A program made the position numbers and the translations under genes. A stretch of 64,000 nt of DNA, taken from the NCBI GenBank assembly GCA_039944855.1, contig JBDUXZ010000017.1:1-64000 (forward strand), in the 5' to 3' direction. Below the pieces are notes generated by a model, which ran no database searches, was not told the origin of the DNA, and worked only from the letters and a program-made list of their open reading frames with translations. Positions 31,304-53,873 of the stretch are shown piece after piece; the stretch's first letter is position 1, and each line of letters opens with the position of its first letter. Origin of the DNA: Rhodothermales bacterium. GTDB lineage: Bacteria; Bacteroidota; Rhodothermia; Rhodothermales; JANQRZ01.

Positions 31304-32035
31304 TCAGCGAGTCGAGCCGGCGGCGACCTTTCGTTCGGCGGCGGCTTTCTTCTCGGCGGCGGAGCCCCAGCCCCAGCCGCGCCCGCGCCGGAGCCAGCGT
31401 TCCCAGGCCGCGAGGTGCTCCGGCGACGAGGGGGCCAGGGCCACGGTGCCGCCGTAGCCGCGCAGCGCGAGCCGGCTCAAGAGCCACCCCGTGCCGTCGG
31501 AGGCCCCGCCTTCCGCCTCGGCTTCAGGGCCGGCACCGAGCAGTCGGACGTGGGCGAGGTGCGGCCCGGTGGCGTCGAGCACGGCCGTCCAGCGGTCGGG
31601 ATCGAATGCGGCGGGGCGCACCTCCCAGCCCGTCTGTGCGCCGTGATCCTCGGCCCATGCGACCGCCCGGCGGGCAGCGTCGAGGTCCGTGTCGTGGAGG
31701 AGCGCGGTGTGCGATAGGGCCGGGCACTCGACGGTCGCGCGCCGGAGCAGTACCCCGGCACCGAGCCCGTAGGCCGCGCTCGACCATATCGACCGCATGG
31801 CGAGGTCGGCTTCGTCGGGCAGCAGGAGCCACGCGATTGGCAGGTCGGTCGGCGTCGCCGGGAAGCAGTCGACGCCGGCCTCGTGCCGGATGGCGCACGG
31901 CGAGGCATCGGCACCGTGGTGGTGGCCCGCGCCCAGCCTCAGCTCCAGGCCCGCGAGCGAGCGCCGACGCCCGGCCACACGCAGCCCCTCGGCGGTAGCA
32001 TCGGGGAGGGCGTCGCTACTCAGCAGCAGCTTCAT
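31304..32035 (-). CDS. 243-residue protein of unknown function inside the DUF2249 operon
   Basis: Starts at ATG 32035, overlapping the end of the upstream DUF2249 gene by 20 nt. The protein is soluble, with alternating alpha/beta character and histidine-rich GAGHHHGAD near residue 36. An N-terminal LLLSSDALPD and an aspartate-rich LLHDTDLDAAR give it the look of a sugar-isomerase-type TIM barrel, but I cannot name a family. The C-terminus is Lys/Ala/Arg-rich. The overlap with DUF2249 and its conserved reading style support a real, co-translated gene. Confidence 0.6.
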   Translation of the reverse strand: MKLLLSSDALPDATAEGLRVAGRRRSLAGLELRLGAGHHHGADASPCAIRHEAGVDCFPATPTDLPIAWLLLPDEADLAMRSIWSSAAYGLGAGVLLRRATVECPALSHTALLHDTDLDAARRAVAWAEDHGAQTGWEVRPAAFDPDRWTAVLDATGPHLAHVRLLGAGPEAEAEGGASDGTGWLLSRLALRGYGGTVALAPSSPEHLAAWERWLRRGRGWGWGSAAEKKAAAERKVAAGSTR

Positions 32036-32291
32036 CGCGGACGGGGTCGCCAGTGAGCCGGCTGATCTTGACGCGCCACAGCTCCGGCCCTTGCTCGAGG
32101 TATTCCCAGCCGATCTGCCCCTTCCGCACGAAGTCGAACTGGTGCTTGAGCGGGATCGGGTCGTGGTCGTTGACGAGGACGAAGTGCTCGCCGGGGGTGA
32201 GGGCGTCGAAGGTGGCGAAGATGGCGGGGTGCTTCTGAGGCGGCGGGAGAGGCCGCACATCGAGGACTTTCTCTTCCGTCGTGGCAGACAT
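32016..32291 (-). CDS. DUF2249 protein (first of three), operon leader
   Basis: Encodes 91 residues. It contains EEKVLDVRPLPPPQKHPAIF and VLVNDHDPIPLKHQFDF, the clearest DUF2249 motifs in the window (DVRP, then NDHDPxPL), and ends in a beta strand LWRVKISR. DUF2249 folds are small and may resemble TusA/SirA-like proteins, recalled but not verified. It is the first gene of the minus-strand operon that runs to fdxA and is divergent from the SufR-like regulator, which suggests control by that regulator. Confidence 0.85.
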   Translation of the reverse strand: MSATTEEKVLDVRPLPPPQKHPAIFATFDALTPGEHFVLVNDHDPIPLKHQFDFVRKGQIGWEYLEQGPELWRVKISRLTGDPVRDEAAAE

Positions 32292-33101: not shown

Positions 33102-33334
33102 ACGAGCCCTCCCCATCCCCCGACGACGCCCGCTTGGCCGAGGCCGTCCGTGCCGCGTGTCTGCGCGCGGCGCTCGACGCCTTCGAAGCAGCCTCCATTA
33201 GCGGCCTCTGCTGCACCGGCGCGTGGGAGTGCGCTGTGGGGGCCGTGCGGACGCTGGATCTGGAGGAGCTCCTGCGAGCCCGGCATAGCGTCGAGACGGG
33301 GAGCCGGGATTCCGTGCGTCGAGCCTCCCGTTGA
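33098..33334 (+). CDS. Small cysteine-containing protein coupled to the SufR-like gene
   Basis: Encodes 78 residues from ATG 33098, overlapping the SufR-like stop (ATGA). The centre reads ISGLCCTGAWECAVGAVRTLDL, in which Gly-Leu-Cys, Trp-Glu and Leu-Asp-Leu resemble a small family of unknown function that databases sometimes label acetyltransferase without support. It is helical and has no membrane segment or signal. The coupling suggests a partner of the regulator, perhaps in cluster sensing. No function is claimed. Confidence 0.6.
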   Translation: MNEPSPSPDDARLAEAVRAACLRAALDAFEAASISGLCCTGAWECAVGAVRTLDLEELLRARHSVETGSRDSVRRASR

Positions 33335-33337
33335 TTC

Positions 33338-33410
33338 CTCTGTCTCCTGAACAGAGTGAGGAGACCACCGAACTTCCATCGTCGGCTTCAATATGCATTT
33401 CCAATTCAGG
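33338..33410 (+). promoter_or_regulatory. Upstream region of the second Rrf2 gene: inverted repeat and NsrR-like half-site
   Basis: CTCTGT-N7-ACAGAG (33338-33356) is a perfect 6-bp inverted repeat just after the previous gene. About 35 nt further, AATATGCATTT (33390-33400) matches one half of the NsrR consensus AAGATGYATTT, with a weaker partner half in AATTCAGG. The site ends 32 nt before the Rrf2 start codon. The half-site match is by eye only. Confidence 0.35.
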
Positions 33411-33431
33411 ACGAGACGATCCGAATAAGCC

Positions 33432-33890
33432 ATGCTACTCTCCCGGCGTTGCGAATACGCTCTCCGAACCGCGCTCTACGTGGCGGCGGCCGACCCCGTG
33501 GCGTACATCGCGGTGCGCGAGATCAGCGAGGCCCTCCGCATTCCCTACCCGTTCCTCGCCAAGACCGTCCAGTCGCTCACCGGTGCCGGCCTCTTCCGGT
33601 CCATGCGTGGGCCGAAGGGCGGCGTCGCCCTCGCTCGTCCCGCCGACCGAATCGCGCTCAAGGAGATCGTCCTCGCCGTAGACGGCCCTGCCATCTTCAG
33701 CGAGTGCGTCCTCGGACTCCCCGGCTGTGGGGAACGGAAGCCGTGCCCGCTCCACGACGAGTGGGGGCCTGCCCGCGACCGCGTCGAGCGCATGTTCGCC
33801 GCTGCCACCCTCGCCGCCACCGCTTCCCGCATCCAAGTCGGTGATTTCCGACTCGCCACGCCCCCACCCGCTCGGCCCACGCCTCCATGA
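33432..33890 (+). CDS. Rrf2-family regulator (NsrR-like) leading the haemoglobin-hemerythrin operon
   Basis: Encodes 152 residues. It opens LSRRCEYALRTALYVAAAD and has cysteines in SECVLGLPGCGERKPCPLHDEW with the same C-x6-C-x5-C spacing as the regulator at 13932; the two are close paralogs. The winged helix comes first, the cluster loop near residue 92, then a helical tail. It probably senses NO through an iron-sulfur cluster and represses its own operon. It overlaps the haemoglobin gene by 4 nt. Confidence 0.87.
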   Translation: MLLSRRCEYALRTALYVAAADPVAYIAVREISEALRIPYPFLAKTVQSLTGAGLFRSMRGPKGGVALARPADRIALKEIVLAVDGPAIFSECVLGLPGCGERKPCPLHDEWGPARDRVERMFAAATLAATASRIQVGDFRLATPPPARPTPP

Positions 33891-34285
33891 AGCCCGACCT
33901 CCAGACGACCGATGACGTTCGCACCGTCGTCCACACGTTCTACGCGGATATGGAGGCCGACCCCGTGCTCGGCCCTTACTTCGCCGGGCTCGACTGGGCG
34001 GCGCACCTCCCGAAGATGGTCCGCTTCTGGTCGTCCGTCGTGTTCGGGACGGGCGCGTACCGGGGGCGGCCGTTCGACCCCCACACGCGGATGCAGGGCC
34101 TCACGCGCGCGCACTTCGCGCACTGGGTCGAGCGCTTTCACCAGACCGTGGACGCCCACTTCGCAGGCGAGCACGCCGAGCGGATGAAGGCGCGGGCCGA
34201 GCAGATCGCGGGCGTCTTCCAGGTCAAGCTCGGCCTCTGGGGCGTCTTCGGCGATGATGTGCCCGAGGCGGAGGTGCCCTCGTGA
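33887..34285 (+). CDS. Group III truncated haemoglobin
   Basis: Encodes 132 residues with a 2/2 globin fold. The start (TTDDVRTVVHTFYADMEADPVLG) and the proximal His region (MQGLTRAHFAHWVERF) match group III truncated haemoglobins, which are short and linked to NO and oxygen handling. The heme is cytoplasmic. It overlaps the Rrf2 gene upstream (ATGA) and the hemerythrin gene downstream (GTGA). NO dioxygenation or binding is the likely role. Confidence 0.88.
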   Translation: MKPDLQTTDDVRTVVHTFYADMEADPVLGPYFAGLDWAAHLPKMVRFWSSVVFGTGAYRGRPFDPHTRMQGLTRAHFAHWVERFHQTVDAHFAGEHAERMKARAEQIAGVFQVKLGLWGVFGDDVPEAEVPS

Positions 34286-34713
34286 AGCGTTCCCCAGCCC
34301 TCCAGCCGCTCTCGCACGATCACTACGAGGGGCTGCATCTTGTAGCTCGCCTCCGCAAGGCGCTCCGCGCCGGCGAGGACATGACGGACTGGCCCGGAAT
34401 CATCGCCGCGTTCTGGTGCGATCACCTCGTCCCTCATTTTGCCGAGGAGGAGGCGCTCGTGCTGCCCGTTCTACGCGAGGGAGCCCCGCCGCTCGCCGAG
34501 CGGATGAGCCGCGAGCACGAGGCGCTCCGAAGGCTGACGGAGGCCGTCGGGGAGGCGGGTGCAGCCCCGGGGGAAGTGCTTACGTCCTTCGCTGACGCGC
34601 TCGCTGCCCACATCCGGTTTGAGGAACGCGAGGCGTTCCCCGTCGCCGAGGGGCTCCTGGGAATCGGGACGTCGGCTCCGCCCGATGCTGATGGCCCCGA
34701 TGCCGATGACTGA
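34282..34713 (+). CDS. Hemerythrin-like (HHE) protein
   Basis: Encodes 143 residues from GTG 34282. Iron ligands are visible in LSHDHYEGLHLV, CDHLVPHFAEEE, SREHEALRR and HIRFEEREAFP, the pattern of an HHE cation-binding bundle. These proteins bind oxygen, NO or store iron. A Cys in WCDHL is unusual close to a ligand. It overlaps the haemoglobin gene by 4 nt and the next membrane-protein gene by 8 nt, so four genes form one coupled operon. Confidence 0.88.
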   Translation: MKRSPALQPLSHDHYEGLHLVARLRKALRAGEDMTDWPGIIAAFWCDHLVPHFAEEEALVLPVLREGAPPLAERMSREHEALRRLTEAVGEAGAAPGEVLTSFADALAAHIRFEEREAFPVAEGLLGIGTSAPPDADGPDADD

Positions 34714-35932
34714 GCCCACGCGACTCCCGCTCCGATGGGCATGGCGCGGTGCCCTCGCCGTCTTCGTCCTCGCCGGCCTCACCGGGGCATTCTTCCGGTT
34801 CGCCATCGCGCACGGTGGGGCGCTGGGGCTCGACCTGGGGAACGTGCGCCACGCCCACTCGCACCTGATGTACTTCGGGTGGGCAACGCCGGCGCTCTTC
34901 GCCCTCATCGCGTACCGCCTCCCCCACCTCGGAGGGCGGCCGATGCCAGGGGCGGGCCTCGTGATTGGGGCGACGTTCGTCCTGGCGCTCCTCGCCTATC
35001 CGCCGTTCCTGCTGTTCGGCTATGCGCCGGCCGTGATCGGCGACGCGCGGCTTCCGCTCTCCGTAGTGGCGGCGGGGCTCAACGTGCTCGCGTGGTACGC
35101 CTTCGCCGCACTCTATGCACGGGCGCGGCGCGCGGCCCCGTCGTCACTGGGGCTCTGGCTCTTCGACCTCGCGCTGTTCTTCCTCGTCCTCGCCACGCTC
35201 GGCGCGTGGGGGCTACCGGCGCTCCAGGTCGTGGGCAGCGAGAACATCGCCCTCAAGACGGCCCTCACCCACCTCTTCCTCGACGTGTTCTCCGAGGGCT
35301 GGTTCGTCTTCGGTGTGCTCGGCCTCGCGGCGACGGAGGCCGAGAGTGAGAGCCGCCTCGCTCGCTGGGGCATGGGGCTGGCGGCAGCGGGTGTGCCGTT
35401 CACGTTCGCGCTGGGGATGCCCGCGGCGCTCGTACCTCCGCTCTTCGCGGGGCTGGCCCGGCTCGGCGGCGTGCTCGTCGGGGTCGGGCTCCTCGTCGTC
35501 GTGGTCGCACTCTGGCCGAGGCTTCGCGGGCTGTGGCGGCTGGCGCTCGGGCTACTCGCACTGAAGGCGCTCGGCGAGGTGGCCGTGAGCGCCGCGCCGG
35601 GGGCGGGGTGGGCGGCCGTGCCCGGCTTCCGCATCCTCTATCTCCACCTCATGTTGCTCGGGTTCGTCACGCTCGGCCTCGTCGCGGCGGCACGCGGCGC
35701 GTGGGGAACCGAGGCGACGCGAGGCCACACCCTTTTTGCCGCATCCGTCGTGCTCCTCCTCGCTTCGCTTCTGACGATGACGCCCGCTTGGCCGGCGGCG
35801 TGGGGCGGCGCGTGGATCGCCGAGTTCGTCGCGTGGTGCGCCCTCGGTCCCGTGCTCGCTGCCGGGGCGATGGGGATCGGGTTCAGGGAGATACATTTAG
35901 ACCTGTTCCCGCCGAAGAGCGTGCTTCAATAG
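34706..35932 (+). CDS. Putative heme-binding 12-helix membrane protein, distantly heme-copper-oxidase-like
   Basis: Encodes 408 residues from ATG 34706 (ATG 34700 or 34685 also possible) with about 12 helices. Three histidine sites fall as in heme-copper oxidases: VRHAHSHLMYFGW (His49-53, cf. helix 2 of CcoN), THLFLDVFSEGW (His189, Asp193, cf. HLWVEGVWE of NorB) and LHLMLLGFVTLG (His314, cf. HLGVYGFAT of CcoN). The copper/FeB histidine pair of helix 7 is missing. I infer a heme protein, perhaps related to NnrS, acting in NO defence. The family is not one I can name. Confidence 0.65.
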   Translation: MTEPTRLPLRWAWRGALAVFVLAGLTGAFFRFAIAHGGALGLDLGNVRHAHSHLMYFGWATPALFALIAYRLPHLGGRPMPGAGLVIGATFVLALLAYPPFLLFGYAPAVIGDARLPLSVVAAGLNVLAWYAFAALYARARRAAPSSLGLWLFDLALFFLVLATLGAWGLPALQVVGSENIALKTALTHLFLDVFSEGWFVFGVLGLAATEAESESRLARWGMGLAAAGVPFTFALGMPAALVPPLFAGLARLGGVLVGVGLLVVVVALWPRLRGLWRLALGLLALKALGEVAVSAAPGAGWAAVPGFRILYLHLMLLGFVTLGLVAAARGAWGTEATRGHTLFAASVVLLLASLLTMTPAWPAAWGGAWIAEFVAWCALGPVLAAGAMGIGFREIHLDLFPPKSVLQ

Positions 35933-36041
35933 ATGGTTTCGTCCTCGTTAATCTTCGAAAAGAGAGCGCCCATACGTACCTTCCCTGTAGCTCCCCGGCG
36001 GTGGACGCCTCGACTCGGCCTATCTCGTCCTGTCGCTGCGG

Positions 36042-36076
36042 GAGACGCCTGTCTCAAGAATGCCTGTCTCAAGCAT
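36042..36076 (+). repeat. 15-nt tandem repeat before the nitrate reductase operon
   Basis: GCCTGTCTCAAG occurs at 36047-36058 and again at 36062-36073, a period of 15. The first copy is also the right half of a small palindrome GAGAC-GCCT-GTCTC (36042-36055). The repeats end 13 nt before the first start codon of the operon. Their position suits a regulatory site or a recent duplication. The remaining gap (35933-36041) shows nothing clear. Confidence 0.45.
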
Positions 36077-36088
36077 GTAGGGTGATCC

Positions 36089-37270
36089 ATGAGCCGCGAA
36101 TCACGAAAAGCGACCGGGTGGGGCCTCGGCGCCACCCTCGTCCTCGGCGTCCTGATCCTCGTCGGCTCGCGGAACCTCGAGCACTTCGACGCGGCCCTCG
36201 TCGGCTACACCTTCGCCGTCCTCTTCGCCACGTTCGGGCTGACGTACCGCTACACGATGTGGCTCCAGCGGCCCCCGACGGCGGTCTATTGGCGGCGCGG
36301 CTGGGAGGCCTTCTTCAAGCGCGGCTACCGCGCCCGCAATGCCGGGACCTGGTTCAAGCGGGTCGGCTCTGAGGTGCTCGCCAACCGGTTCATCTTCAAG
36401 CGGGGCACGCTGCGCGGCGTGACGCACCTCCTCATCATGTGGGGCTGCCTGATCGCCGTTGCGATCACGTTCCCGCTCGTCTTCGGATGGCTCTACTTCC
36501 GGCCTGTCGCGGGCGACCTCGCGCTCTACGAGGCCGTCGTCTTCGGCTTCCCGCTGTTCCGGTTCCCGCACGAGTCGGCGGTCGCGTTCTTCCTCTTCCA
36601 CGGGCTCGTGTGGTCGTCCTTCCTCGTCATCGCGGGCGTGATGCTTGCGATGCGGCGGCGGATGCGGGAGGAGGGCGCGGTGGCGGTCCAGCGCTTCGCG
36701 GAGGACTTCATGCCGCTGATCCTCCTCTTCGCCGTGAGCCTGACCGGGCTGATGCTGACGGCGAGCTACACGTGGATGGCGGGGTACGCCTACACCTTCA
36801 TCGCCATCCTCCACGCCATCACCGTGATCGGGACGTTCCTCTGGCTCCCGTTCGGGAAGTTCTTCCACGTCTTCCAGCGGCCAGCACAACTCGGCGTCGG
36901 CTTCTACAAAGACGTGGGGCGGGCCGAGGAGCCGGCGCACTGCCGGCGCTGTGGGCACGCCTTCACGTCGCGGATGCACGTCGAGGACCTCATCGAGGTC
37001 GAGCGACAGCTCGGCTACCGCTACGAGATCCCCGGCAGCACGGCGTCCGACGGCGCGGCGTCGGGGCAGGCCGTCGAGCACTACCAGTGGATCTGCCCGC
37101 CGTGCCGCCGCGCCTCGTTCGTCATGGCGCAGGGGCTCCGGTGGCAGGGCCGGCGCGGCGGCGCGGCGCTCCCGCTCGACGGGCGGCCCATCCCGATGCC
37201 CGTCTACGCCAACCCCGGCACGGGCGAAGGCCCCCTCGGGGCCGAGGACGCCGAGAACTTCCACCCGTAA
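36089..37270 (+). CDS. NarI/DsrM-like b-type cytochrome subunit with C-terminal zinc-ribbon segment
   Basis: Encodes 393 residues. About six membrane helices carry histidines ([24 protein letters not shown] and KFFHVFQRP) that could bind two hemes b, as in quinol-oxidising membrane subunits of NarI/DsrM type. The last 110 residues are soluble with HCRRCGHAF and ICPPCRRA, two CxxC pairs resembling a zinc ribbon or rubredoxin. It leads the operon, 12 nt before the molybdenum subunit. It probably takes electrons from quinol to the ferredoxin subunit. A soluble tail on such a subunit is unusual. Confidence 0.78.
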
Positions 37271-37282
37271 TCTGCTCTTCCC

Positions 37283-39562
37283 ATGCCCACGACTACGCCT
37301 ACGCCCGGCCTCGACCTCGACGCCATCCGCGAGTTCGGCCCGTACCTCCAGTACGCCCGCGACATCCGCGTCGACACGGGCGTCGAGCCGGACCGACTCG
37401 TCAAGACGCACTGCTGCTTCTGCGGCCAGCAGTGCGGGATGCAGCTCAAGGTCAAGGGCAACACCGTCGTCGGCGTCGAACCGTGGTATGACTTCCCGTT
37501 CAACCGCGGGATGATGTGCCCGAAGGGGATCAAGCGCTACCTCCAGCAGAGCCACCCCGACCGCCTCCTCCACGCCTACAAGAAGGACCCGAGCGCGCCG
37601 AGCGGGTTCTCCGAGATGCCCTACGACGAAGCCATCCGCCGCGTCGCCGACGAGATCGACCGCATCCAGCGCGAGTACGGGAACGACGCCTTCGCCATAC
37701 TCTCCGGGGCAAGCCTGACGACGGAGAAGACGTACCTCATGGGCAAGTTCGCCCACATGGCGCTGAAGACGGCCAACATCGACTACAACGGCCGCCTCTG
37801 CATGGTCAGCGCGGCGGCGGGTAACAAGAAGTCGTTCGGGGTCGACCGCGCGGCGAACCCATGGGGCGACATCCTCGGGGCCGAGGTCGTCTGGATCAGC
37901 GGGGCGAACGTGGCCGAGTGCGCGCCGATCACGACGAACTACGTCTGGCAGGCGCGCGAGCAGGGCGCGAAGGTCATCGTCGCCGACCCGCGCATCACGC
38001 CGATCGCGCGGACGTGCGACCTCTTCCTCCCCGTCAAGCCGGGCCGCGACACGGCGCTCTTCAACGGCGTCCTCCACCTCATGATCGAGCACGACTGGCT
38101 CGACCACGACTTCATCGAGAACCACACGGTCGGGTTCGACGCCGTCGCCGAGGAGGTGAGCAAGTGGACGCCCGCGCTGACGGCCGAGGTCACGGGGGTC
38201 GCCGAGAAGTCGATCCAGCAGGCCGCCGAGTGGTGGGGCCAGGCCTCGACGAGCTTTCTGATGCACGCGCGCGGCATCGAGCACCACAGCCGTGGCGTAC
38301 AGAACGTGATGAGCGCGATCAACATCGTCCTCGCCTCCGGGCGCATCGGCCGCGAAAACTGCGGCTACGGGACGATCACCGGCCAGGCGAACGGGCAGGG
38401 CGGGCGCGAGCACGGGCAGAAGTGCGACCAGCTCCCCGGCGGGCGCGACCTCGGCAACCCCGAGCACCGGGCCTACGTCGCCGGCGTCTGGGGCATGGAC
38501 CCCGACGACCTCCCGCAGCCCGGCGTCGACGCCTACGAGATCATGCGGAAGGCGCACAGCGGTGAGATCAAGGGGCTCCTCTCGATCTGCTTCAACCCCG
38601 TCGTCTCGCTCCCCGACAACAACTTCGTCCGCGAGGCGCTCGACAAGCTGGAGTTCTTCGTCGCCATCGACTTCTTCATGAGTGCGACGTCCCGCTACGC
38701 CGACGTCGTGCTGCCGGGCTCGCTCCAGGAGGAGGACGAGGGGACGGTGACGCAGCTCGAAGGCCGCGTCATCAAGATCAACCAGGTTGTCGACTGCCCC
38801 GGCGAGGCGCGGCGCGACTGGGAGATCATTCAGGACATCGCGAAGGCACTGGGGCGAGAGCGTGGGCTGACGTTCAGCGGGCCGCGTGAGATGTTCGAGG
38901 AACTGCGCATCGCGTCGAAGGGCTACACGAATGACTACTCCGGGATCACGTGGGAGGGCGTCGAAGACAACTACGGGGTGTTCTGGCCGTGCCCGGCCGA
39001 GACGCCGGAGGGCGTGCCGCTGCCCGGTCCGCAGGGGACCGTCCGCCTGTTTGAGCCCGGCTCGTGGAACCCGATTGCGAAGGGCGCCGGCCCGTTCTAC
39101 TTCCCCGACGGCAAGGCCCGCTTCAACGTGACCGAGTACGTCGGCCCGACCGAGGACGTGGACGCCGACTACCCCGTCATCCTCACGACGGGCCGCGTCG
39201 TCAGCCAGTTCCTCTCGGGCAATCAGACCCGCCGCATCGGCCCGCTCCTCGACCACTACCCCGAGCCGAAGATCGAGATGCACCCGCGCCTCGCCGCGAA
39301 GCTCGGCATCCGAGACGGCGACTGGGCGACGGCCGAGAGCCGCCGGGGAAACTGCACGCTCCGCGCCTCGGTCGTCAAGACGATCCGTCCGGACACCGTC
39401 TTCATCCCCTACCACTGGGCCGGACGCAAGAGCGCCAACCAGCTCACGATCTCGGCGCAGGACCCGATCTCGAAGATCCCCGAGTACAAGGTGTGCGCCG
39501 TCCGCGTCTCCAAGGCTGAGGCCCCACCCGAGTACGCCGACCAACTCCAGCCTCAGCAGTAA
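37283..39562 (+). CDS. Molybdopterin oxidoreductase catalytic subunit, Nas/Nap-type (putative nitrate reductase)
   Basis: Encodes 759 residues. The [4Fe-4S] motif is Cys44-x2-Cys47-x3-Cys51-x27-Cys79, with Lys81 following. The molybdenum ligand is Cys173 in GRLCMVSA, as in Nas, Nap and formate dehydrogenases. [12 protein letters not shown] and [13 protein letters not shown] match the nitrate reductase/formate dehydrogenase family. There is no twin-arginine signal, so it is cytoplasmic. A downstream narK and moa/moe genes favour nitrate as substrate; formate or another oxyanion remains possible. It sits in a respiratory-type operon in place of NarG. Confidence 0.85.
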
Positions 39563-39588
39563 GCCCCTCCACCCAGCCCTCCGTCCCC

Positions 39589-40269
39589 GTGCCCGTCCCC
39601 GCCACGCTCGAGTTCTTCATCGATCCCGCCCGCTGCATCGGCTGCCAGGCGTGCGTGCAGGCGTGCGCCGAGTGCGACACCCACCGCGGCCAGTCGATGA
39701 TCCAGCTCGACTACGTCGACCGCGCCCACTCGACGCAGACGGTGCCCGTCGTGTGCATGCACTGCGACTCGCCGACGTGCGCCGAGGTCTGCCCCGCCGA
39801 CGCCATCAAGCGGACCGAGGACGGCGTGGTCCACTCGGCCCGGAAGCCACGCTGCATCGCGTGCAACAACTGCGTCCTCGCCTGCCCCTTCGGCGTGCCG
39901 AAGATGAACACCGAGATGCAGCTCATGATGAAGTGCAACATGTGCTACGACCGGACCTCGGTCGGGCTCAAGCCGATGTGCGCCTCGGTCTGCCCGAGCC
40001 AGGCCCTCGCCTTCGGGACGCGCGAGGAGATGGCCCGCCTCCGGCCGAGTGCCCGCCCCGTCAACACCTTCCAGTTCGGCGCGCAGACCATCACGACGAA
40101 GGTGAACATGATGGTCCCCGCCGACGACGGCCCGGACTGGGTGGACGTGACGGCCGCCATGCACGAGCCGACGATCGGACACCAGATGCTCGACGACATC
40201 TTCGACGACGACGTGTTCGGGGGCGACGGCTTCATCGACCTTCTCAACGACGACCCCGCTGACGCATGA
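39589..40269 (+). CDS. Four-cluster ferredoxin-like electron-transfer subunit
   Basis: Encodes 226 residues from GTG 39589. Four cysteine groups are visible: [37 protein letters not shown] and CNMCYD with ASVCP, the layout of NrfC/DmsB/HybA-type subunits that hold four [4Fe-4S] clusters. It would pass electrons from the membrane b cytochrome or Rieske protein to the molybdenum subunit. The tail from about 180 is acidic ([11 protein letters not shown]). It overlaps the Rieske gene by 4 nt. There is no signal peptide. Confidence 0.88.
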
Positions 40270-40880
40270 GCCCCGAGCCCCCCCTCATCTCCCGTGGTGC
40301 CTCCGCCCCGCAGGACGCCGACCGCTCGACCGTCCCGCCCGACGGTCGCCCGCTCGCCGAGCAGCCGAAGTGGCGGCGGGACTTCCCCATCGACTGGCCG
40401 CAGGACGAGTACGTTTCGCGCCGTGACCTCGTGAAGTTCATCTGCCTCACGAGCGTGGCCTTCGTGGTCGGGCAGTTCTGGATCGTCGGGAAGAGCCTGT
40501 TCGGGCGGCGCGAGGCCGCGCTTCCGGCGCTCGCCATCGCGGATGTCGACGAGCTCCCCATAGGCGGGGCCAAGACGTTCCGCTACCCCGAGGGCAGCAC
40601 GCCGCGGCTACTCGTGCGCACCGGAGCGGCGACGTTCGTGGCCTACGACCAGCAGTGCACCCACCTCCTCTGCCCCATCGTGCCGGCGCACCGGGAGGGC
40701 ATGGGCGTCGCCGCGTCTGAGCGGGGGCTGGAGCTCCACTGCCCGTGCCACAACGGCTGGTTCGATCTCGAGACGGGCCGCCCCCTCGCCGGGCCGCCGC
40801 GCCGCCCGCTCCCGCGCGTCTCCGTCGAGGTCCGCGGCAGCATCGTCTACGCGACCGGCGTGGAGGAGCCTGCGGCATGA
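40266..40880 (+). CDS. Rieske [2Fe-2S] protein with Tat-type signal anchor
   Basis: Encodes 204 residues. A long, 50-residue cytoplasmic N-terminus precedes [12 protein letters not shown] (Arg52-Arg53) and one membrane helix, a Tat-type anchor like that of bc1 Rieske subunits. The ligands are in QQCTHLLCP and HCPCHNGWF, with both cysteines of the disulfide present. The cluster would face the periplasm while the molybdenum subunit is cytoplasmic, which is odd for a shared complex. It overlaps both neighbours by 4 nt, so it is part of the operon. Confidence 0.85.
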
Positions 40881-41137
40881 AGCATCGCCCTGCCTTCTCC
40901 GACGAACGGGCTCCCGGCAGACGCCCGCCCTTCGTCCGCGCCCAGCGGATGACGATCGTCAACGGCATCCTGCTGTTCGTCGTGCTGATCGTCATCTTGC
41001 AGCTCTGGCTGCTGACCGCGACGATGAACGCCTACCTCGGCGGCGACACCGGCGTCGTGTGGCCCGCTGCCCTCGCGAGCCTCGTCTGCCTCGGCCTCAA
41101 CGCCGGCCTCCTCTGGTACCTCTACCGGCTCGACTGA
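40877..41137 (+). CDS. Small two-helix membrane protein of the nitrate reductase operon
   Basis: Encodes 86 residues from ATG 40877, which overlaps the Rieske stop. A basic, proline-rich head of about 25 residues is followed by two membrane helices (about 28-47 and 60-80) ending in YLYRLD. I do not recognise a named family with certainty; proteins of this type occur beside Rieske proteins. It lies directly before the transporter gene, with no gap. It may anchor the electron-transfer subunits. Confidence 0.65.
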   Translation: MKHRPAFSDERAPGRRPPFVRAQRMTIVNGILLFVVLIVILQLWLLTATMNAYLGGDTGVVWPAALASLVCLGLNAGLLWYLYRLD

Positions 41138-42358
41138 ATGGACCCTCTAGCCCCTCCGGCCCCCACGTCTGCCACCGACGCACCGCCCGACCGACGGGGT
41201 GCGGTGCGCGCCCTCGCACTCGCCACGCTCGCGCTCGCGGTGAACTTCTGGGCGTGGAACCTCCTCGGCCCCCTCGCACCGACCTACCGAGAGCTCCTCG
41301 CCCTCTCGCCATTCCAGGTCTCGCTCCTCGTCGCGGTCCCCGCGCTCATCGGCGCGCTGGCCCGCATCCCCATCGGCGCGCTCACCGACCGCTACGGCGG
41401 CCGGATCATGTTCACGGCCGTGACGGCGCTCACGATCGTGCCCGTCCTCTTCCTTGCCGCGACCGACGCCTACCCGTCGCTGCTCGTTGGTGGCTTTTTC
41501 CTCGGGCTGGGTGGGGCCTCGTTCGCCGTCGGCATCCCGTTCGTGAACGCGTGGGTGGCCCCCGAGCGGCGCGGCCTCTTCCTCGGCATCTACGGCGCGG
41601 GCAACGTCGGCACGGCCGTTTCAGGGTTCCTCTCGCCGCCCATCGCGGGGGCCTTCGGGCTCCCATCGGCGTACCTCGTCGTGGCGGGCGCGCTCGCCGT
41701 GACGGCCGTCGTCTTCGCGCTCCTCGGCCGCGATGCGCCGGGGCGGGTGGCTTCGACCGGGTCGATGATGGCGGGCTTCGTCGCGGCCGTGAAGCTCCCC
41801 ATCGCCCGCGACCTCGCGCTGCTCTACGCCATCACGTTCGGCGGCTTCGTCGCCTTCGGCGCCTACCTGCCGACGTTCCTGACCGAGGCCTACGCCCTCA
41901 CCGTGCCGGACGCGGCGCTGCGGGCGGCCGGTTTCATCGTCCTCGCCACGGCGACCCGTCCGGTCGGCGGCGCGCTCGCAGACCGGTTCGGCGGGGTGCC
42001 CGTGCTCCTCGGCTCCTTCCTCGCGATTGGCGTCGGCGCGATCGTGACGGCGTTCGAGCCGGACATCGTGACGGCGACGGTGGGCTTCCTGACGATTGCC
42101 GCCGCGCTCGGCGTCGGCAACGGGGCCGTGTTCGCGCTCGTCGGCCGGCGCTCGCCGGCCGGGACGGTCGGGAGCGTGACGGGTCTCGTCGGCGCGGCGG
42201 GTGGCTTGGGCGGGTTCCTCCCGCCGATCATCATGGGGCTCGTCTTTCAGGCGACGGGGTCGTACGCCATCGGCCTCATGCTGCTCTCGGACGTCGCGTT
42301 CGCGGGGGCGGTCTACACGGCGTGGCGTCTGCGGGACGTGAAGCTCCCGAGCGCCTGA
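41138..42358 (+). CDS. narK: NarK-type nitrate/nitrite transporter (MFS)
   Basis: Encodes 406 residues with 12 helices. NarK signatures include FWAWNLLGPLAPTYRELL after the first helix and the glycine-rich FLGLGGASFAVGIPFVNAW and VGNGAVFALVGRR nitrate signature regions; Arg residues in helices 2 and 8 are present (ALARIPIGALTDR; ATATRPVGG). It would take up nitrate or exchange it for nitrite across the inner membrane, consistent with a cytoplasmic nitrate reductase. It starts directly after the two-helix gene and ends the operon. Confidence 0.88.
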   Translation: MDPLAPPAPTSATDAPPDRRGAVRALALATLALAVNFWAWNLLGPLAPTYRELLALSPFQVSLLVAVPALIGALARIPIGALTDRYGGRIMFTAVTALTIVPVLFLAATDAYPSLLVGGFFLGLGGASFAVGIPFVNAWVAPERRGLFLGIYGAGNVGTAVSGFLSPPIAGAFGLPSAYLVVAGALAVTAVVFALLGRDAPGRVASTGSMMAGFVAAVKLPIARDLALLYAITFGGFVAFGAYLPTFLTEAYALTVPDAALRAAGFIVLATATRPVGGALADRFGGVPVLLGSFLAIGVGAIVTAFEPDIVTATVGFLTIAAALGVGNGAVFALVGRRSPAGTVGSVTGLVGAAGGLGGFLPPIIMGLVFQATGSYAIGLMLLSDVAFAGAVYTAWRLRDVKLPSA

Positions 42359-42393
42359 GGCTAGGCAAATTGACCGGGGTTGCCCTCGCCTGC

Positions 42394-43782
42394 TTAGGCC
42401 GGCAGGTGAGGTCCGGCCCCGCTCAGCGCCGCAGCGGCGAACCAACGGTATGTCACGGTGCTCTCCTCGCTCCCCCCGACATCCGCCGACTCGACGCGTA
42501 CCCCGATCAGGTTTGCACGGTAGGCCAACGGGGGGAGGCACTCATCCCATCCGGCCGGGCTCCCTTCACCCCACAGCAGACGGAACCGCAGCCAGCATTC
42601 CTTGTCGTCGCGTCCGGCTTCGACGACCACGCGCTCCAGCCCCTGATCCTTCAGGGTCGCGTTGAGCAGGTCTTTAGCGAGTTGGTAGAGTTGCGCAGCT
42701 TCGAAGCGGTTGACGGGAGCCTCTAAGCCGTCCCGGTGCACCGAGATAGGGACACGGTGCCGCTGAGCGGCCGTCGCAGCTAGTTCGTCGAGGGCGTTGC
42801 CCAGGCTGCCCATCGCTTCCAGGGGTGCGACGGACTGGAACAGGCTCAGCGCCTGCTGGTCCACCTGGTGCAGGTGCGCCGTTAGCTCTAAGGCCTCGTC
42901 CGCTTCGGCGAGTTGCCGTCTCTCGAGGTGCCGCGCGAGCTGGCGGCTCATCATGCCGAGTCCCGTGAGCGACTGCCCGAGTTCCTCGTGGAGGCTGTAC
43001 CCGACGGCCCATCGCTCTTCGTCGCTCGCCCGTAGCACGTGCTGCTCCAGCAGGCGGCGCTCGGTGATGTCCCGCACCGTCACCGTGTACTGGAGCCCCT
43101 CCTCGTGTGTCACCGGGACGAAGACGACCTCGACGGGGAAGCAGGCCCCGCTCTCGCGCCGCCCGCCCATCTCGTGAGTACGTGTGGCGCCCTGCTCGGC
43201 CGGTCGCAGGAATATGGCGCGGTCCCGCTCGAAACGCACGCGGTGCTCCGGGTTCAAAAGCTCGGCGAAGGGCCGGCCACGGAGCTCCGGCTCGGCATAG
43301 CCGAAGATCTGCTCGGCCGCGGGGTTGACTGAGGTGATGCATCCACGCGCGTCCAGCGTCAGAACGCCGTCAGCCGTCGTGGCGAGGACGGCCCGGTGCT
43401 TGGCTTCGCTCCTGAGCAGAGCACCCTCGAAGGCCTTCCGCTGGAACGACAGCACGGCGACGGTCCACATCGCGGCGACGGCCAGGAGCCGGTTCGTGAG
43501 CGTGATGGACAGCGCCGCGCCCGGCGGGGACAGCCACAGCCCGGCGCCGGTGAGCAACGAGCACACCGCCGCCACGGCGATGATGAGGCGTCGGTCCGGC
43601 AACCACATCGCCAGAAGGACGGGCGCGATGTACGGGACGCCCCCCGCGATGCCGAGGGGCAGCCAGAGGTCGACGACGAAGATGACGAGCGTCAGCAGCG
43701 CCCCGAAGAGCACGACGTCGGCCCGCGCCTCCCCCCGACGTAGCGGACCGAGGAGGACATCGCGATACGGGGTAACGTTCAT
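42394..43782 (-). CDS. Membrane PAS sensor kinase with degenerate catalytic domain (HisKA_3 type)
   Basis: Encodes 462 residues. An N-terminal membrane domain of about four helices (residues 20-115) is followed by a PAS domain (about 130-245, with ITSVNPAAEQIFGY) and a HisKA_3-like segment ASDEERWAVGYSLHEELGQSLTG, which has His but Glu in place of the usual Asp. The ATPase part lacks the N box, replaced by DLLNATLKD, and no G1/G2 boxes are seen. It may be a sensor without kinase activity. It is convergent with narK and divergent from moeA. Confidence 0.75.
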   Translation of the reverse strand: MNVTPYRDVLLGPLRRGEARADVVLFGALLTLVIFVVDLWLPLGIAGGVPYIAPVLLAMWLPDRRLIIAVAAVCSLLTGAGLWLSPPGAALSITLTNRLLAVAAMWTVAVLSFQRKAFEGALLRSEAKHRAVLATTADGVLTLDARGCITSVNPAAEQIFGYAEPELRGRPFAELLNPEHRVRFERDRAIFLRPAEQGATRTHEMGGRRESGACFPVEVVFVPVTHEEGLQYTVTVRDITERRLLEQHVLRASDEERWAVGYSLHEELGQSLTGLGMMSRQLARHLERRQLAEADEALELTAHLHQVDQQALSLFQSVAPLEAMGSLGNALDELAATAAQRHRVPISVHRDGLEAPVNRFEAAQLYQLAKDLLNATLKDQGLERVVVEAGRDDKECWLRFRLLWGEGSPAGWDECLPPLAYRANLIGVRVESADVGGSEESTVTYRWFAAAALSGAGPHLPA

Positions 43783-43859
43783 CGTTCAGGACGCCGGGGG
43801 TGGTCGCTGGAGAGTCGGCACGGTACCATGATCCCCCATCGTTGCGGTTCGACGCGACA

Positions 43860-43918
43860 GGGGCCACCACCTCGCGCGTGTAAGCTGCATCCCTACACAG
43901 CCGCGAGCGTGTGGCCCC
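43860..43918. other. 59-nt imperfect hairpin between the degenerate kinase and moeA
   Basis: Arms are GGGGCCAC (43860-43867) with GTGGCCCC (43911-43918), then CTCGCG (43871-43876) with CGCGAG (43902-43907), then TGTA (43879-43882) with TACA (43894-43897), leaving an 11-nt loop. Eighteen base pairs are interrupted only by small internal loops. It ends 108 nt before moeA. It could be a regulatory RNA element, a stalk of a mobile repeat, or a bidirectional terminator; there is no T-run. The rest of this 244-nt gap shows nothing clear. Confidence 0.55.
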
Positions 43919-44026
43919 CGTACTGGCCTACTGCGTGGCTACCGATCAGGCCCGCGTCGGGATGCCCCGCCGCCTGCAGCGGCCCCGTAGTTTGTCATCC
44001 CTCGTTGCCTCTCGCGAACCCCAGCA

Positions 44027-45211
44027 ATGATCACTGTTCAGGAAGCCGACCTCCTCCTAGCCGAGCACGCCTGCACGCGCGGGGCAGTCTCCGTCCCGCT
44101 GACGCAGGCCGTTGGCCGCGTGCTCCGCGAGGACGTGGCGGCCGACCGCGACTACCCCCCCTTCGACCGCGTGGCGATGGACGGGATCGCCGTGGCCTCG
44201 GCCGGACTGGAAGACGGAGCGCGTCGGTTCCGGCTGGCGAGCACGCAGGCGGCGGGCGAACCGCCCCACACGCTCCCCGAGACGGGAGCATGTATCGAGA
44301 TCATGACGGGCGCGGCGCTGGCGGAGGGGTGCGACACGGTCGTCCGCTATGAGGACCTCGACCTCTCGGGCGGCTGGGCCACGCTGCGCGACAGCGTCGA
44401 GGTGGAACCGAAGCAGAACGTGCACGTCCGCGGCTCGGACCGTCGGGCGGGGGAGCCGGTGCTAGAGGCGGGCACCCGGCTCCGCTCGCCCGACATCGCC
44501 GCGCTCGCCTCGATAGGGAAGGCGGAGGTTCGCGTGGCGGCGCTGCCGCAGATCGCCGTCGTCACGACGGGCGACGAGGTCGTGGCGGTAGACGCCCCTG
44601 TGCTCCCGCACCAGATTCGCGAGTCAAACGGCCCCGCCGTCCGCGCCGCGCTCCACCGGCACGGCTACCCGGACGTGCAGCTCGATCACGTGCCCGACGA
44701 CGAGGCCCAGCTCCGGCACCACCTCGGTGCCGCCCTCGATGAGGCCGACGTGCTCGTGCTCTCCGGCGGCGTCTCGGCCGGCAAGTTCGACCTCGTACCG
44801 AAGCTCTTGGACGAACTCGGCGTGCGCGAGGTCTTCCACAAGATCCGCCAGAAGCCGGGCAAGCCGCTCTGGTTCGGCACGGCGGCGCGCGGGCAGGCGG
44901 TCTTCGGACTGCCGGGGAACCCCGTCTCCGCGCTCGTGTGTCTGTATCGCTACGTGCTCCCCTTTCTTGCAGCCTCCGCCGGCGAGACGCCCCGACCGCC
45001 GGAGACGGCCCGGCTCGCGCGGCTACCGAGGCGGAAAAACGACTTCACGCTCTTCGTGCCGGCCCGCCGCGAGGGCCTCGACGCGCACCCCGTCCACTCC
45101 AACGGCTCCGGCGACTTCCTCTCGCTCCTCGCGAGCGACGGATTCGCTGAGGTCGCGGCCGAGGTCGAGCAGCCCAGCCCCGTCCCCTTCTACTCTTGGA
45201 GCGCCGCCTGA
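44027..45211 (+). CDS. moeA: Molybdopterin molybdotransferase MoeA
   Basis: Encodes 394 residues. The N-terminal domain reads ITVQEADLLLAEH and DRVAMDGIAV (typical SxMDG-like motif), and the central domain has the MogA-like TTGDEVV, LSGGVSAGKFD and FGLPGNPVSALVC. It inserts molybdate into adenylylated molybdopterin. It starts the Moco operon and overlaps moaA by one base. Its place next to the molybdenum reductase genes supports a shared purpose. Confidence 0.94.
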   Translation: MITVQEADLLLAEHACTRGAVSVPLTQAVGRVLREDVAADRDYPPFDRVAMDGIAVASAGLEDGARRFRLASTQAAGEPPHTLPETGACIEIMTGAALAEGCDTVVRYEDLDLSGGWATLRDSVEVEPKQNVHVRGSDRRAGEPVLEAGTRLRSPDIAALASIGKAEVRVAALPQIAVVTTGDEVVAVDAPVLPHQIRESNGPAVRAALHRHGYPDVQLDHVPDDEAQLRHHLGAALDEADVLVLSGGVSAGKFDLVPKLLDELGVREVFHKIRQKPGKPLWFGTAARGQAVFGLPGNPVSALVCLYRYVLPFLAASAGETPRPPETARLARLPRRKNDFTLFVPARREGLDAHPVHSNGSGDFLSLLASDGFAEVAAEVEQPSPVPFYSWSAA

Positions 45212-46161
45212 TGGAACTCCTCCCCGTCCTCACCGACCCCCACGGCCGCTGGATCCGCAAGCTGCGCGTCTCGCTCACCGACGTGTGCAACTTCCGGTGC
45301 ACGTACTGCATGCCCGCGAACGTCCGCTTCCAGCCGTCGGCGACGCTGCTCCCGCCGGACGAGCTGGTGGGGATGGTCGCCGGACTCGTTGAGGAGGGCG
45401 TTCGCCAGGTCCGCCTCACGGGCGGCGAGCCGCTGGCGCGGAGGGAGTTCCGAGAGATCGCCGAGGGCGTCGCCGCGCTCCCCCTCGACAAGCTCGGCCT
45501 CACGACGAACGGGTACTGGCTCGAAGACCACCTCCCGTTCCTCGAAAAAATCGGCTGCCGCCACGTCAACGTCAGCCTCGACAGCCTCCGCGCCGACCGC
45601 TTCGAGGCCATCACCCGCACGCCCTTCTTCGACCGCGTGCTCCGCTCGATCCTGGAGGCGAAGGCGATGGGCTTCCCCGTCAAGGTGAATGTCGTCCTCA
45701 TCCGCGGCGCGAACGACGCCGAGGTCGAGGACTTCGTGGCCTTCTCGGCCACGCACGGCGTCCCCGTCCGCTTCCTCGAATACATGAAGATTGGACCGCA
45801 GCGCGGGCGGCACGACGATCTGTTCGTCCCGGCTGGCGAGGTGATCGAACGGCTCCGCAAGAGAAACGCGCTCACGCCCATCGAGGCCGAGGCCGACGCG
45901 ACAGCGTTCTCATTCCGCACCGACGACGGGGCCGAGGTCGGGTTCATCGCGTCGGAGAGCCGGCCGTTCTGCGCTACGTGCTCGCGGCTACGCCTCTCCG
46001 CGCGCGGCCGGCTCCGCGCCTGCCTGATGTCTGAGGACGGGCTGAGCCTCGTGGGCGTCCCGCGCGAGCGCTACCCGGAGGTGCTGGCCGAGGTGATGGC
46101 GATGAAGCCCACCGGGCGGCTGCCGGAGATCGCGCAGCCCATGCACGAGATCGGAGGATGA
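45211..46161 (+). CDS. moaA: GTP 3',8-cyclase MoaA
   Basis: Encodes 316 residues from ATG 45211; a TTG 15 nt earlier is less likely. The radical SAM motif CNFRCTYC lies near residue 28, the GGEP motif near 76, and the C-terminal second-cluster cysteines in CATCSRLRLSARGRLRACL. It catalyses the first step of molybdenum cofactor synthesis from GTP. The usual C-terminal GG is present as EIGG, the last residues. moaC, which acts with MoaA, is not in this operon. Confidence 0.94.
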   Translation: MELLPVLTDPHGRWIRKLRVSLTDVCNFRCTYCMPANVRFQPSATLLPPDELVGMVAGLVEEGVRQVRLTGGEPLARREFREIAEGVAALPLDKLGLTTNGYWLEDHLPFLEKIGCRHVNVSLDSLRADRFEAITRTPFFDRVLRSILEAKAMGFPVKVNVVLIRGANDAEVEDFVAFSATHGVPVRFLEYMKIGPQRGRHDDLFVPAGEVIERLRKRNALTPIEAEADATAFSFRTDDGAEVGFIASESRPFCATCSRLRLSARGRLRACLMSEDGLSLVGVPRERYPEVLAEVMAMKPTGRLPEIAQPMHEIGG

Positions 46162-47330
46162 GCGAGATGCCCAGCAAGAGGATGTCCAGCGAGAAGACGT
46201 GCGACCGCACCCGTCGCCGGTTCACCTACCACCCGTTCGAGGTGGCGCTCTGCGGCTACTCGGGGGCGGGCAAGACGACGCTCGCGTGCCGCCTCCTCGC
46301 GCGCTGGGCCGACCGCTACCACGTCGGCTTCGTTAAGCACGACGCGCACCGGTTCGAGATGGACGAGCCGGGGAAGGACACGCACCGGGCGGCCGAGGCC
46401 GGCGCGGCGGGCGTGATGATCAACGACCCCCGCCACTTCGCCCGGATCAGCACCCTCCCCTACTCCACCTTCGAGCGCGCCACCGCCTTCCTCGACGCCG
46501 ACTTCGTCCTCGCCGAGGGGTTCAAGCGCTCCGACCTCCCCAAGCTCCTCCTCCTCGACCCCGACGGCCGCGCCGAACGGGAGTACCGCGACGGCCGGTT
46601 CACGAACGTCCTCGCCGTCGTCGGCCCCGCCGAGCGGCCCGAGGGGCTCGGCGTGCCGCTCTTCCACCGCGACGACGTGGACGACGTCGCCGAGCTGATC
46701 GAATCTCACGTTCGTCGGCAGGCCGAAGCACCGCTCTACGGCCTCGTGCTCGTCGGCGGCGAGAGCCGGCGGATGGGCCGCCCGAAGTGGGCGCTCGACT
46801 ACCGAGGAGAGCCGCAGGCCGCGCGCACGGCCCGCCTCCTCGGCACCGTCTGCGAGCGCGTTTTCCTCTCCGTTCGCCCCGGCCAGGCGGTCGAGGGGAT
46901 GCCCGAGGCGGAGCGCATTGAGGACCGATTCCCGGCGTGGGGACCTTCCACGGGCATCCTCTCCGCGATGGAGGCGCACCCCGAGGCCGCGTGGCTCGTC
47001 GCCGCGTGCGACCTCCCCTTCCTCGACGCGCGGACGCTCGAAGACCTCGTGGCGGGCCGCGACCCGCTCAAGCTCGCGACGGCCTACCGAAGCACCCACG
47101 GCGGCAGCCACGAGGGCCTGCCCGAGCCACTCTGCGCCGTCTGGGAGCCGCGCGCCCGCCTGCGCCTCCTCCAGGCCGCCGGGCTGGGGATGGCCTGCCC
47201 GCGCAAGGTGCTCATCGAGTCGGTGCCCCGGTTGCTCGACCTAGCGAACGCGCGGGCGCTCGACAACGCCAACACGCCCGGCGAGTACGAGGCGGCGCGT
47301 GCGGCCCTGCAGTCGTCCGCGCAAACCTGA
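46158..47330 (+). CDS. MobB-MobA fusion protein (molybdenum cofactor guanylylation)
   Basis: Encodes 390 residues. The N-terminal half (about 25-185) is MobB-like with P-loop GYSGAGKTTL and AEGFKRSDLPK. The C-terminal half (about 195-380) is MobA-like with VLVGGESRRMGRPKWAL and CDLPFLD. MobA attaches GMP to form the bis-MGD cofactor needed by the oxidoreductase at 37283; MobB is an accessory GTP-binding protein. Fusion in this order is known in some bacteria. It overlaps moaA by 4 nt. Confidence 0.9.
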   Translation: MSEMPSKRMSSEKTCDRTRRRFTYHPFEVALCGYSGAGKTTLACRLLARWADRYHVGFVKHDAHRFEMDEPGKDTHRAAEAGAAGVMINDPRHFARISTLPYSTFERATAFLDADFVLAEGFKRSDLPKLLLLDPDGRAEREYRDGRFTNVLAVVGPAERPEGLGVPLFHRDDVDDVAELIESHVRRQAEAPLYGLVLVGGESRRMGRPKWALDYRGEPQAARTARLLGTVCERVFLSVRPGQAVEGMPEAERIEDRFPAWGPSTGILSAMEAHPEAAWLVAACDLPFLDARTLEDLVAGRDPLKLATAYRSTHGGSHEGLPEPLCAVWEPRARLRLLQAAGLGMACPRKVLIESVPRLLDLANARALDNANTPGEYEAARAALQSSAQT

Positions 47331-47335
47331 TCCCC

Positions 47336-47596
47336 ATGAAGAAGCAGATCGACGTCAAGCAGATCGTCGTCCACTACTACGCCCTCTTCCGCGACCTCCG
47401 CGGGAAGGATAGCGAGACCATATCGACGCAGGCCGCTTCGCCGCGCGAGCTGTACGAGGAGCTGGGGATGAGCGACGCCCTCCGCCTCGACACGCGCTCC
47501 GTCAAGGTGGCGGTGAACGACGCCTTCGCCTCATGGGACGACGCCCTTCAGGGTGGCGATCTCGTCGTCTTCATTGCGCCTACGGCGGGGGGCTGA
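47336..47596 (+). CDS. moaD: Molybdopterin synthase small subunit MoaD
   Basis: Encodes 86 residues from ATG 47336. It has the ubiquitin-like fold of MoaD and ends in the essential GG (PTAGG), which carries the thiocarboxylate. YYALFRDLRGKDSE and VNDAFASWDDALQGGDLVVFIAP are typical. It is the sulfur donor of molybdopterin synthase together with MoaE, whose gene begins 2 nt downstream. The start is 5 nt after the mobBA stop. Confidence 0.9.
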   Translation: MKKQIDVKQIVVHYYALFRDLRGKDSETISTQAASPRELYEELGMSDALRLDTRSVKVAVNDAFASWDDALQGGDLVVFIAPTAGG

Positions 47597-47597
47597 C

Positions 47598-48035
47598 GTG
47601 TTTCGGATCACCAACGAACGTATCGACACGGCGGACTGCCGCCGTGCCCTCGAAGCCGCCTCGGCCGGCGGGTTCGTGGCGTTTGAGGGGTGGGTGCGCG
47701 ACCACAACGAGGGGCGGGGCGTCGTCTCGCTCGAATACGAGGCGTACACCGCCCTCGCCGAGAAGGAGGGGCTCCTCATCGTTACGGAGGCCGGCCAGCG
47801 TTTCGAGGCCGAGCGCGTAGGCGCCGCGCACCGGACGGGCCACCTCGCCGTCGGCGACCTCGCCGTGTGGGTGGGGGTCTCCGCCGCGCACCGCGACGCC
47901 GCTTTCGCGGCCTGCCGCTACGTCATCGACGAGCTCAAGCGCCGGGTGCCCATCTGGAAGCGCGAGCATTACGCCGACGGCACGGCGGAGTGGGTGAACG
48001 GTGCCGCGCGCCCGCCCGAGCAGCGAACGAACTGA
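47598..48035 (+). CDS. moaE: Molybdopterin synthase catalytic subunit MoaE
   Basis: Encodes 145 residues from GTG 47598, 2 nt after the moaD stop. Features are FEGWVRDHNEGR near residue 28, LEYEAYTALAEKE, the HRTGHLAVGDLAVWVGVSAAHRD segment and the catalytic Lys in VPIWKREHYADG. It adds the dithiolene sulfurs to precursor Z. All conserved residues I know are present. It ends the Moco operon and is convergent with the next gene. Confidence 0.93.
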   Translation: MFRITNERIDTADCRRALEAASAGGFVAFEGWVRDHNEGRGVVSLEYEAYTALAEKEGLLIVTEAGQRFEAERVGAAHRTGHLAVGDLAVWVGVSAAHRDAAFAACRYVIDELKRRVPIWKREHYADGTAEWVNGAARPPEQRTN

Positions 48036-53863: not shown

Positions 53864-53873
53864 GGCAGCGGGG

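Follow-up and report, generated by a model that had tools for sequence, protein, structure and literature searches.

The window analyzed here is the 64,000-nucleotide stretch at positions 1 to 64,000 of contig JBDUXZ010000017.1 (assembly GCA_039944855.1) from a Rhodothermales bacterium, and its positions 36089-42358 hold an operon in which a Nas-type molybdenum subunit is encoded together with a membrane cytochrome b, a ferredoxin-like protein, a Rieske protein, a DUF6755 protein and a NarK-type transporter. An earlier note, made from the DNA letters, had placed six operon genes here, and all six were confirmed at these coordinates on the + strand. The gene inventory of the note was accurate, except that the open reading frame (ORF) at 40877-41137, between the Rieske and NarK genes, was not named. 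The intergenic gaps from the cytochrome b gene to narK measure 12, 26, -4, -4 and 0 bases. The operon is composed as follows:

36089..37270, + strand: membrane cytochrome b subunit, 393 residues, with six predicted membrane helices, four conserved heme-ligand histidines and a cytoplasmic zinc-ribbon tail
37283..39562, + strand: catalytic subunit with molybdenum bis(pyranopterin guanine dinucleotide) (Mo-bisPGD), a Nas-type nitrate reductase by prediction, 759 residues, lacking a twin-arginine translocation (Tat) signal
39589..40269, + strand: ferredoxin-like electron-transfer subunit with four predicted [4Fe-4S] clusters and neither signal nor membrane helix
40266..40880, + strand: Rieske [2Fe-2S] protein with an uncleaved-type Tat anchor and the disulfide cysteines of the bc1/AioB type
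40877..41137, + strand: DUF6755 (PF20540) small membrane protein, 86 residues, a probable accessory subunit
41138..42358, + strand: NarK-type nitrate/nitrite transporter of the major facilitator superfamily (MFS)

Catalytic molybdenum subunit

The Fe4S4, molybdopterin and dinucleotide-binding domains of the molybdenum (Mo) subunit were recognized far above the Pfam cut-offs. The best-scoring family was the NasC profile NF047855 (755 bits, below its cut-off of 1100), followed by the formate dehydrogenase profile TIGR01591 (557 bits, below its cut-off of 666), and the best PDB matches were formate dehydrogenases. The protein is neither of the NarG type (TIGR01580, 62 bits against a cut-off of 1084) nor a NapA (250 bits against 931). 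The window protein carries no twin-arginine signal, as the earlier note had claimed; an N-terminal RR motif is absent from 86 of 88 Mo subunits, and the RR of the other two is not followed by a hydrophobic helix.

Active-site positions were compared in an alignment that included E. coli NapA, FdhF and FdnG, Paracoccus NapA and several NasC/NasA proteins. The Mo-ligand site is Cys-Met in all 88 Mo subunits, and the nitrate-reductase-type motif TGQ...RE.G is present in 86 of them; at the same positions, FdhF has Sec140-His and Arg333 where the Mo subunit has Cys-Met and Thr. The glutamine of TGQ corresponds to Gln374 of mature E. coli NapA (by our own count, precursor Q410 minus the 36-residue signal), a residue discussed as possibly catalytic (PMC13223375). 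Judged by these residues, the active site is of the nitrate-reductase type.

In a maximum-likelihood tree of 55 proteins, the 24 family members included formed one clade with support of 100/100, and its sister group consisted of five Gram-positive/actinobacterial-type NasC proteins, again at 100/100, so placed that the family stands beside the NasC references and not within them. Formate dehydrogenases split from the family at 100/99, and NapA and proteobacterial NasA were placed elsewhere. The earlier note had named kinship with formate dehydrogenases as the outcome that would speak against its reading; the tree shows a separate clade instead. Of its label "Nas/Nap-type", the first half stands, with Gram-positive NasC as the closest relatives, and the second does not.

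Membrane cytochrome b

Histidines 113, 171, 242 and 260 of the cytochrome b are kept in 99-100% of the 86 homologues compared, and the zinc-ribbon cysteines 285/288/336/339 are present in 79 of the 86, having been lost in a Flavobacterium-type branch. In the protein of locus L048 (genome G348) the H171 position is occupied by glycine and the other three histidines are kept; one heme may have been lost or moved there. The structure model (predicted local distance difference test score 85.7) shows six membrane helices, with a beta hairpin separating the third from the fourth. When the profiles of the cytochrome b and NarI were aligned, over 106 columns (E 2.4e-4), H242 and H260 fell on H187 and H205, the ligands of the last NarI helix; the other two ligands lie on separate helices, unlike H56 and H66 of NarI. 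The cytochrome b would thus be NarI-like in function and is at best a distant relative of NarI. In Deinococcus plasmid records it is misannotated as an "MFS transporter" (L033:7862-8974, L034:7847-8959 and L035:7747-8859).

Ferredoxin, Rieske, DUF6755 and NarK proteins

All 17 cysteines of the ferredoxin subunit are invariant across 86 homologues and are sufficient for four [4Fe-4S] clusters. The CxH...CxxH ligands and the disulfide cysteines of the Rieske protein are found in 100% of its homologues, and a twin-arginine motif precedes a single hydrophobic helix in 81 of 82 of them; because of this motif the cluster is expected on the outer, periplasmic side. By sequence profile, the closest PDB entries are the Thermus bc1 Rieske protein and AioB, and by fold they are AioB and Rieske ferredoxins. 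Near the cluster, Gly and Phe are found where bc1 has Ser and Tyr. These two bc1 residues raise the Rieske potential, as is known from bc1 mutants, and by analogy a potential lower than that of bc1 is expected here.

The ORF at 40877-41137 matched DUF6755 with 109.7 bits (cut-off 27), and the encoded protein is a probable accessory subunit. For the transporter, the best family was the NarK subfamily, at 189 bits and below the cut-off of 312. On this evidence, the earlier descriptions of a b-type membrane cytochrome with a zinc-ribbon tail, a four-cluster ferredoxin, a Tat-anchored Rieske protein and, as best family, NarK were borne out.

Conservation and distribution of the gene set

Two peptide patterns specific to the family were run against 84,980 species genomes and gave at least 582 confirmed relatives; gene order was counted in the best 80 of these. 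The 80 loci belong to Planctomycetota, Chloroflexota, Acidobacteriota, Myxococcota, Gemmatimonadota, Armatimonadota, Verrucomicrobiota, Bdellovibrionota, Bacteroidota and Latescibacterota, and the core order cytochrome b–Mo subunit–ferredoxin–Rieske–DUF6755 was found in at least nine bacterial phyla, Deinococcota included. The cytochrome and ferredoxin genes stood in order at 79 loci each and the Rieske gene at 76, several of the losses being contig ends. A small membrane ORF lies 3' of the Rieske gene at 78 of the 80 loci, and a NarK gene is present at 26. No relatives were found in the viral contigs scanned.

In samples of about 390 genomes from the window's phylum, the cytochrome b, DUF6755 and Mo subunit were each detected in eight genomes, and these were the same eight; the Mo subunit scored at least 1379 bits there, and the next protein 563. 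The co-occurrence check proposed in the earlier note thus found strict co-inheritance, and the recurrence of the gene order in 80 independent loci is far beyond chance. The idea of a composite peculiar to this genome was not sustained: a one-off assembly is ruled out by the conservation in 80 loci, and the operon is an old conserved module.

Within the same order of bacteria, the gene set was found in only one other genome (G046, 91%). Nas/Nap-like genes of relatives in that order (L007, L012 and L020) have one in-frame stop each and may be pseudogenes or reflect assembly errors. Flavobacterium-like genomes and Deinococcus megaplasmids carry the same operon, with 56-58% identity of the Mo subunit. 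Since the nearest relatives of the window Mo protein outside its order in the maximum-likelihood tree come from Gemmatimonadota and Acidobacteriota, transfer between phyla is likely.

Nitrogen metabolism around the operon

NirB adjoins all eight assimilatory NasC reference loci, whereas it adjoins only 2 of 90 loci of the present family. A minority of family loci lie near nosZ/nosD, norB, nirK, narGH, RIC, Crp/Fnr or moaA/moeA genes; some neighbour clusters arose as antisense artefacts when GC-rich DNA was processed by a crude gene caller, and these were disregarded. The window genome encodes NrfA and NosZ (nos_propeller; G000, C20:469245-470447 and C20:252437-252649), and no NirS, no NIR_SIR (NirB-type) protein and no NirK above the cut-off were detected in it. 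Its sole other molybdopterin-domain match is weak and lies in a 639-residue frame, and no other plausible nitrate reductase is predicted in this genome. The window organism is accordingly predicted to ammonify nitrate and also to consume N2O.

NirK was found in seven of nine genomes tested, and in genomes G343 and G354, which also encode NirK, the Mo subunit is the only molybdopterin-domain protein. Four Flavobacterium-type genomes encode a separate Nas-type enzyme of 1177-1201 residues elsewhere. A sulfite/nitrite-reductase domain lies some 10 kb from it in G254, G381 and G282, and the distance in G116 is 15 kb. These findings argue that the operon is not the assimilation enzyme of these four. 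Given the rarity of NirB, the denitrification and ammonification genes around the operon and the separate Nas-type enzymes in the four relatives, the usual partners of the enzyme appear to be dissimilatory. At L054, L055, L101 and L127, canonical NarG genes occur within about 10 kb of the operon; some organisms apparently retain this nitrate reductase next to another of a different type.

Proposed function and alternative explanations

The earlier note had suggested a distinct respiratory nitrate reductase, and the separate clade, active-site residues, co-inheritance and dissimilatory neighbours support this suggestion. We consider it probable that the operon encodes a respiratory nitrate reductase of an undescribed kind, bound to the membrane and dependent on quinol, with a Nas-type catalytic subunit at its core. 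In the proposed mechanism, the cytochrome b would take the role that NarI has for NarGH, oxidising quinol towards the periplasm, and electrons would pass through two b hemes and the four-cluster ferredoxin subunit to the Mo site in the cytoplasm. Nitrate would be imported by NarK and reduced in the cytoplasm by the Nas-type subunit, with energy conserved by a redox loop of the NarGHI type. The exported Rieske protein, anchored beside the cytochrome, would most likely contribute to quinol oxidation on the periplasmic side, either relaying single electrons or connecting to another carrier, and the DUF6755 protein is probably a small membrane subunit of the complex. The nitrite formed would be passed to NrfA for ammonification in the window organism and mostly to NirK in the Flavobacterium-type relatives. 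In this scheme the gene content, phylogeny, conservation, gene context and active-site residues are observed, and the substrate, electron path, orientation, energy coupling and the parts played by the Rieske and DUF6755 proteins are inferred.

Several points weigh against this proposal. The hhalign probability of the cytochrome b–NarI alignment is 44%; the Pfam NarI gamma subunit was matched in only 24 of 63 cytochrome b members (best 4e-5), and the window protein, at 16 bits, stays below its cut-off of 22.9. A PDB fold search with the cytochrome b model gave no match, only noise (G-protein-coupled receptors, E at least 0.03). No NarJ/NapD-type chaperone gene was noticed among the operon ORFs, an electron partner for the Rieske protein is not evident, and two Planctomycete loci (L097 and L109) have nirB and NarK directly upstream, which suggests assimilatory use of the operon there.

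The last two loci bear on the best-surviving alternative, which we regard as unlikely: an assimilatory nitrate reductase fed by the quinone pool and not by NADH or ferredoxin, the nitrite being assimilated afterwards. It would also fit the kinship of the Mo subunit with assimilatory NasC; however, the window genome, G046 and G348 contain no NIR_SIR-domain reductase, and both the scarcity of NirB beside the family loci and the separate Nas-type enzyme of four relatives argue against it.

A donor other than quinol appears quite unlikely. Here the nitrate reductase would be fed through the Rieske protein by a high-potential periplasmic donor such as cytochrome c, bc1 or alternative complex III. 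Periplasmic carriers serve as electron partners of AioB, and the Rieske protein resembles those of bc1 and AioB in its conserved disulfide and has a Tat anchor. Dependence on the bcc-aa3 supercomplex is known for Streptomyces Nar1 (PMC7931247). Nevertheless, a cytochrome c gene is not a regular neighbour of the operon, and the NarI-like placing of the b hemes suggests direct oxidation of quinol.

A more speculative idea, which we hold to be a long shot, is that cytochrome b, Rieske and DUF6755 together split quinol at a site of their own, unrelated to bc1, as a second independent quinol bifurcation wired directly to nitrate respiration. One quinol electron would then travel through the Rieske protein to a high-potential carrier, and its partner would reach cytoplasmic nitrate by way of the b hemes and iron–sulfur clusters.

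It is very improbable that the enzyme reduces another oxyanion or acts as a nitrite oxidoreductase (Nxr) in reverse. The substrate is a prediction, and promiscuity is possible among the nitrate reductases of this family; against this stand the active-site motif, the NasC kinship, the NarK gene in the operon and the surrounding N-oxide genes, and Nxr is of the NarG type, which the Mo subunit is not. A formate dehydrogenase-type enzyme, favoured by the TIGR01591 score and the PDB matches, is ruled out by the score below the cut-off, by Met in place of His after the Mo-ligand Cys, by the lack of an Arg333 equivalent and by the tree.

Flanking genes in the window

In the window, the operon lies within a nitrate/nitric oxide (NO) island (32016-48035) made up of DUF2249, helix-turn-helix regulator, Rrf2, truncated haemoglobin and hemerythrin genes, the operon, a PAS sensor and molybdenum-cofactor genes. 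The flanking features are:

32016..32291, - strand: DUF2249 protein, often found near denitrification genes
33432..33890, + strand: Rrf2-family regulator (NsrR/IscR-like)
33887..34285, + strand: truncated haemoglobin, an NO-related context
34282..34713, + strand: hemerythrin-domain protein
42394..43782, - strand: PAS-domain sensor kinase-like protein
44027..48035, + strand: moeA, moaA, a mobB-mobA fusion and moaE, for molybdenum-cofactor supply

Between the hemerythrin gene and the operon, a 431-residue membrane protein (34637-35932, + strand) had no Pfam or NCBIfam match and looks NnrS/CcoN-like by eye; an unmatched membrane protein of similar size is encoded near Herpetosiphon operons (L085:5467-6750). 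A fusion of a patatin phospholipase with an Omp85-type barrel (PlpD-like; 51482-53899, - strand) is unrelated to the operon. An Rfam search of the window gave zero matches, and a promoter scan was empty.

Significance for surveys of nitrate reduction

Nitrate reductases are currently split into four groups (PMC13223375), and nitrate reduction in genomes and metagenomes is usually scored by narG and napA (e.g., PMC10732223 and PMC4770552). A description of the present operon was not found in the open literature; most subscription journals were outside the search, so this is weak evidence of absence. The operon combines known folds in a new complex of very wide distribution. Its parts are currently annotated as "molybdopterin oxidoreductase family protein", "MFS transporter" and DUF6755, and nitrogen-cycle gene surveys probably miss it. 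If the enzyme does serve respiration, nitrate reduction would have to be credited to many Planctomycetota, Chloroflexota, Acidobacteriota, Myxococcota and Bacteroidota now called incapable of nitrate respiration, and the missing first step would be supplied in organisms that have nirK, nrfA or nosZ while lacking both nar and nap. The operon also raises the bioenergetic question of why a nitrate reductase should have a periplasmic Rieske protein.

Comparison with known systems

As the earlier note had stated, the operon does not match NarGHI, NapAB or assimilatory Nas, and membership tests placed it outside all three. The closest catalytic relative, NasC of Gram-positives and Actinomycetota (NF047855), forms the sister clade, has the same active-site motifs, is cytoplasmic and is about 41-43% identical; however, it is soluble and, in the reference loci, stands beside NirB, whereas a membrane cytochrome, ferredoxin, Rieske and DUF6755 proteins are found here instead, and the Mo subunit remains below the NasC cut-off.

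In layout, the operon resembles NarGHI, with a cytoplasmic Mo subunit, an iron–sulfur relay subunit and a putative diheme b cytochrome in which two histidines align with those of NarI. It differs in that the catalytic subunit is not NarG, the ferredoxin, at 41 bits for a cut-off of 524, is no NarH, NarJ is missing, the cytochrome has an extra helix, a zinc ribbon and its other two histidines placed differently, and the Rieske and DUF6755 proteins are additional. Unlike that of NapAB, the catalytic subunit has no Tat signal, scores below the NapA cut-off and is separate in the tree.

The cytochrome b gave weak profile matches to QmoC and TcuB (1e-6 and 4e-7), far below the cut-offs, and the flavoprotein partners of these proteins are absent here. 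The Rieske protein shares its fold, Tat export and conserved disulfide with AioB and the bc1 Rieske protein, but it belongs to a cytochrome b/Nas operon and has Gly/Phe in place of the bc1 Ser/Tyr. The nearest precedent is the haloarchaeal Nar operon: in Haloferax mediterranei, the Rieske protein NarB and the cytochrome b NarC are encoded with the nitrate reductase, and a quinol-linked role was likewise proposed (PMC2483277). The catalytic subunit there is of the NarG type and faces the outside, whereas here it is Nas-type and has no export signal.
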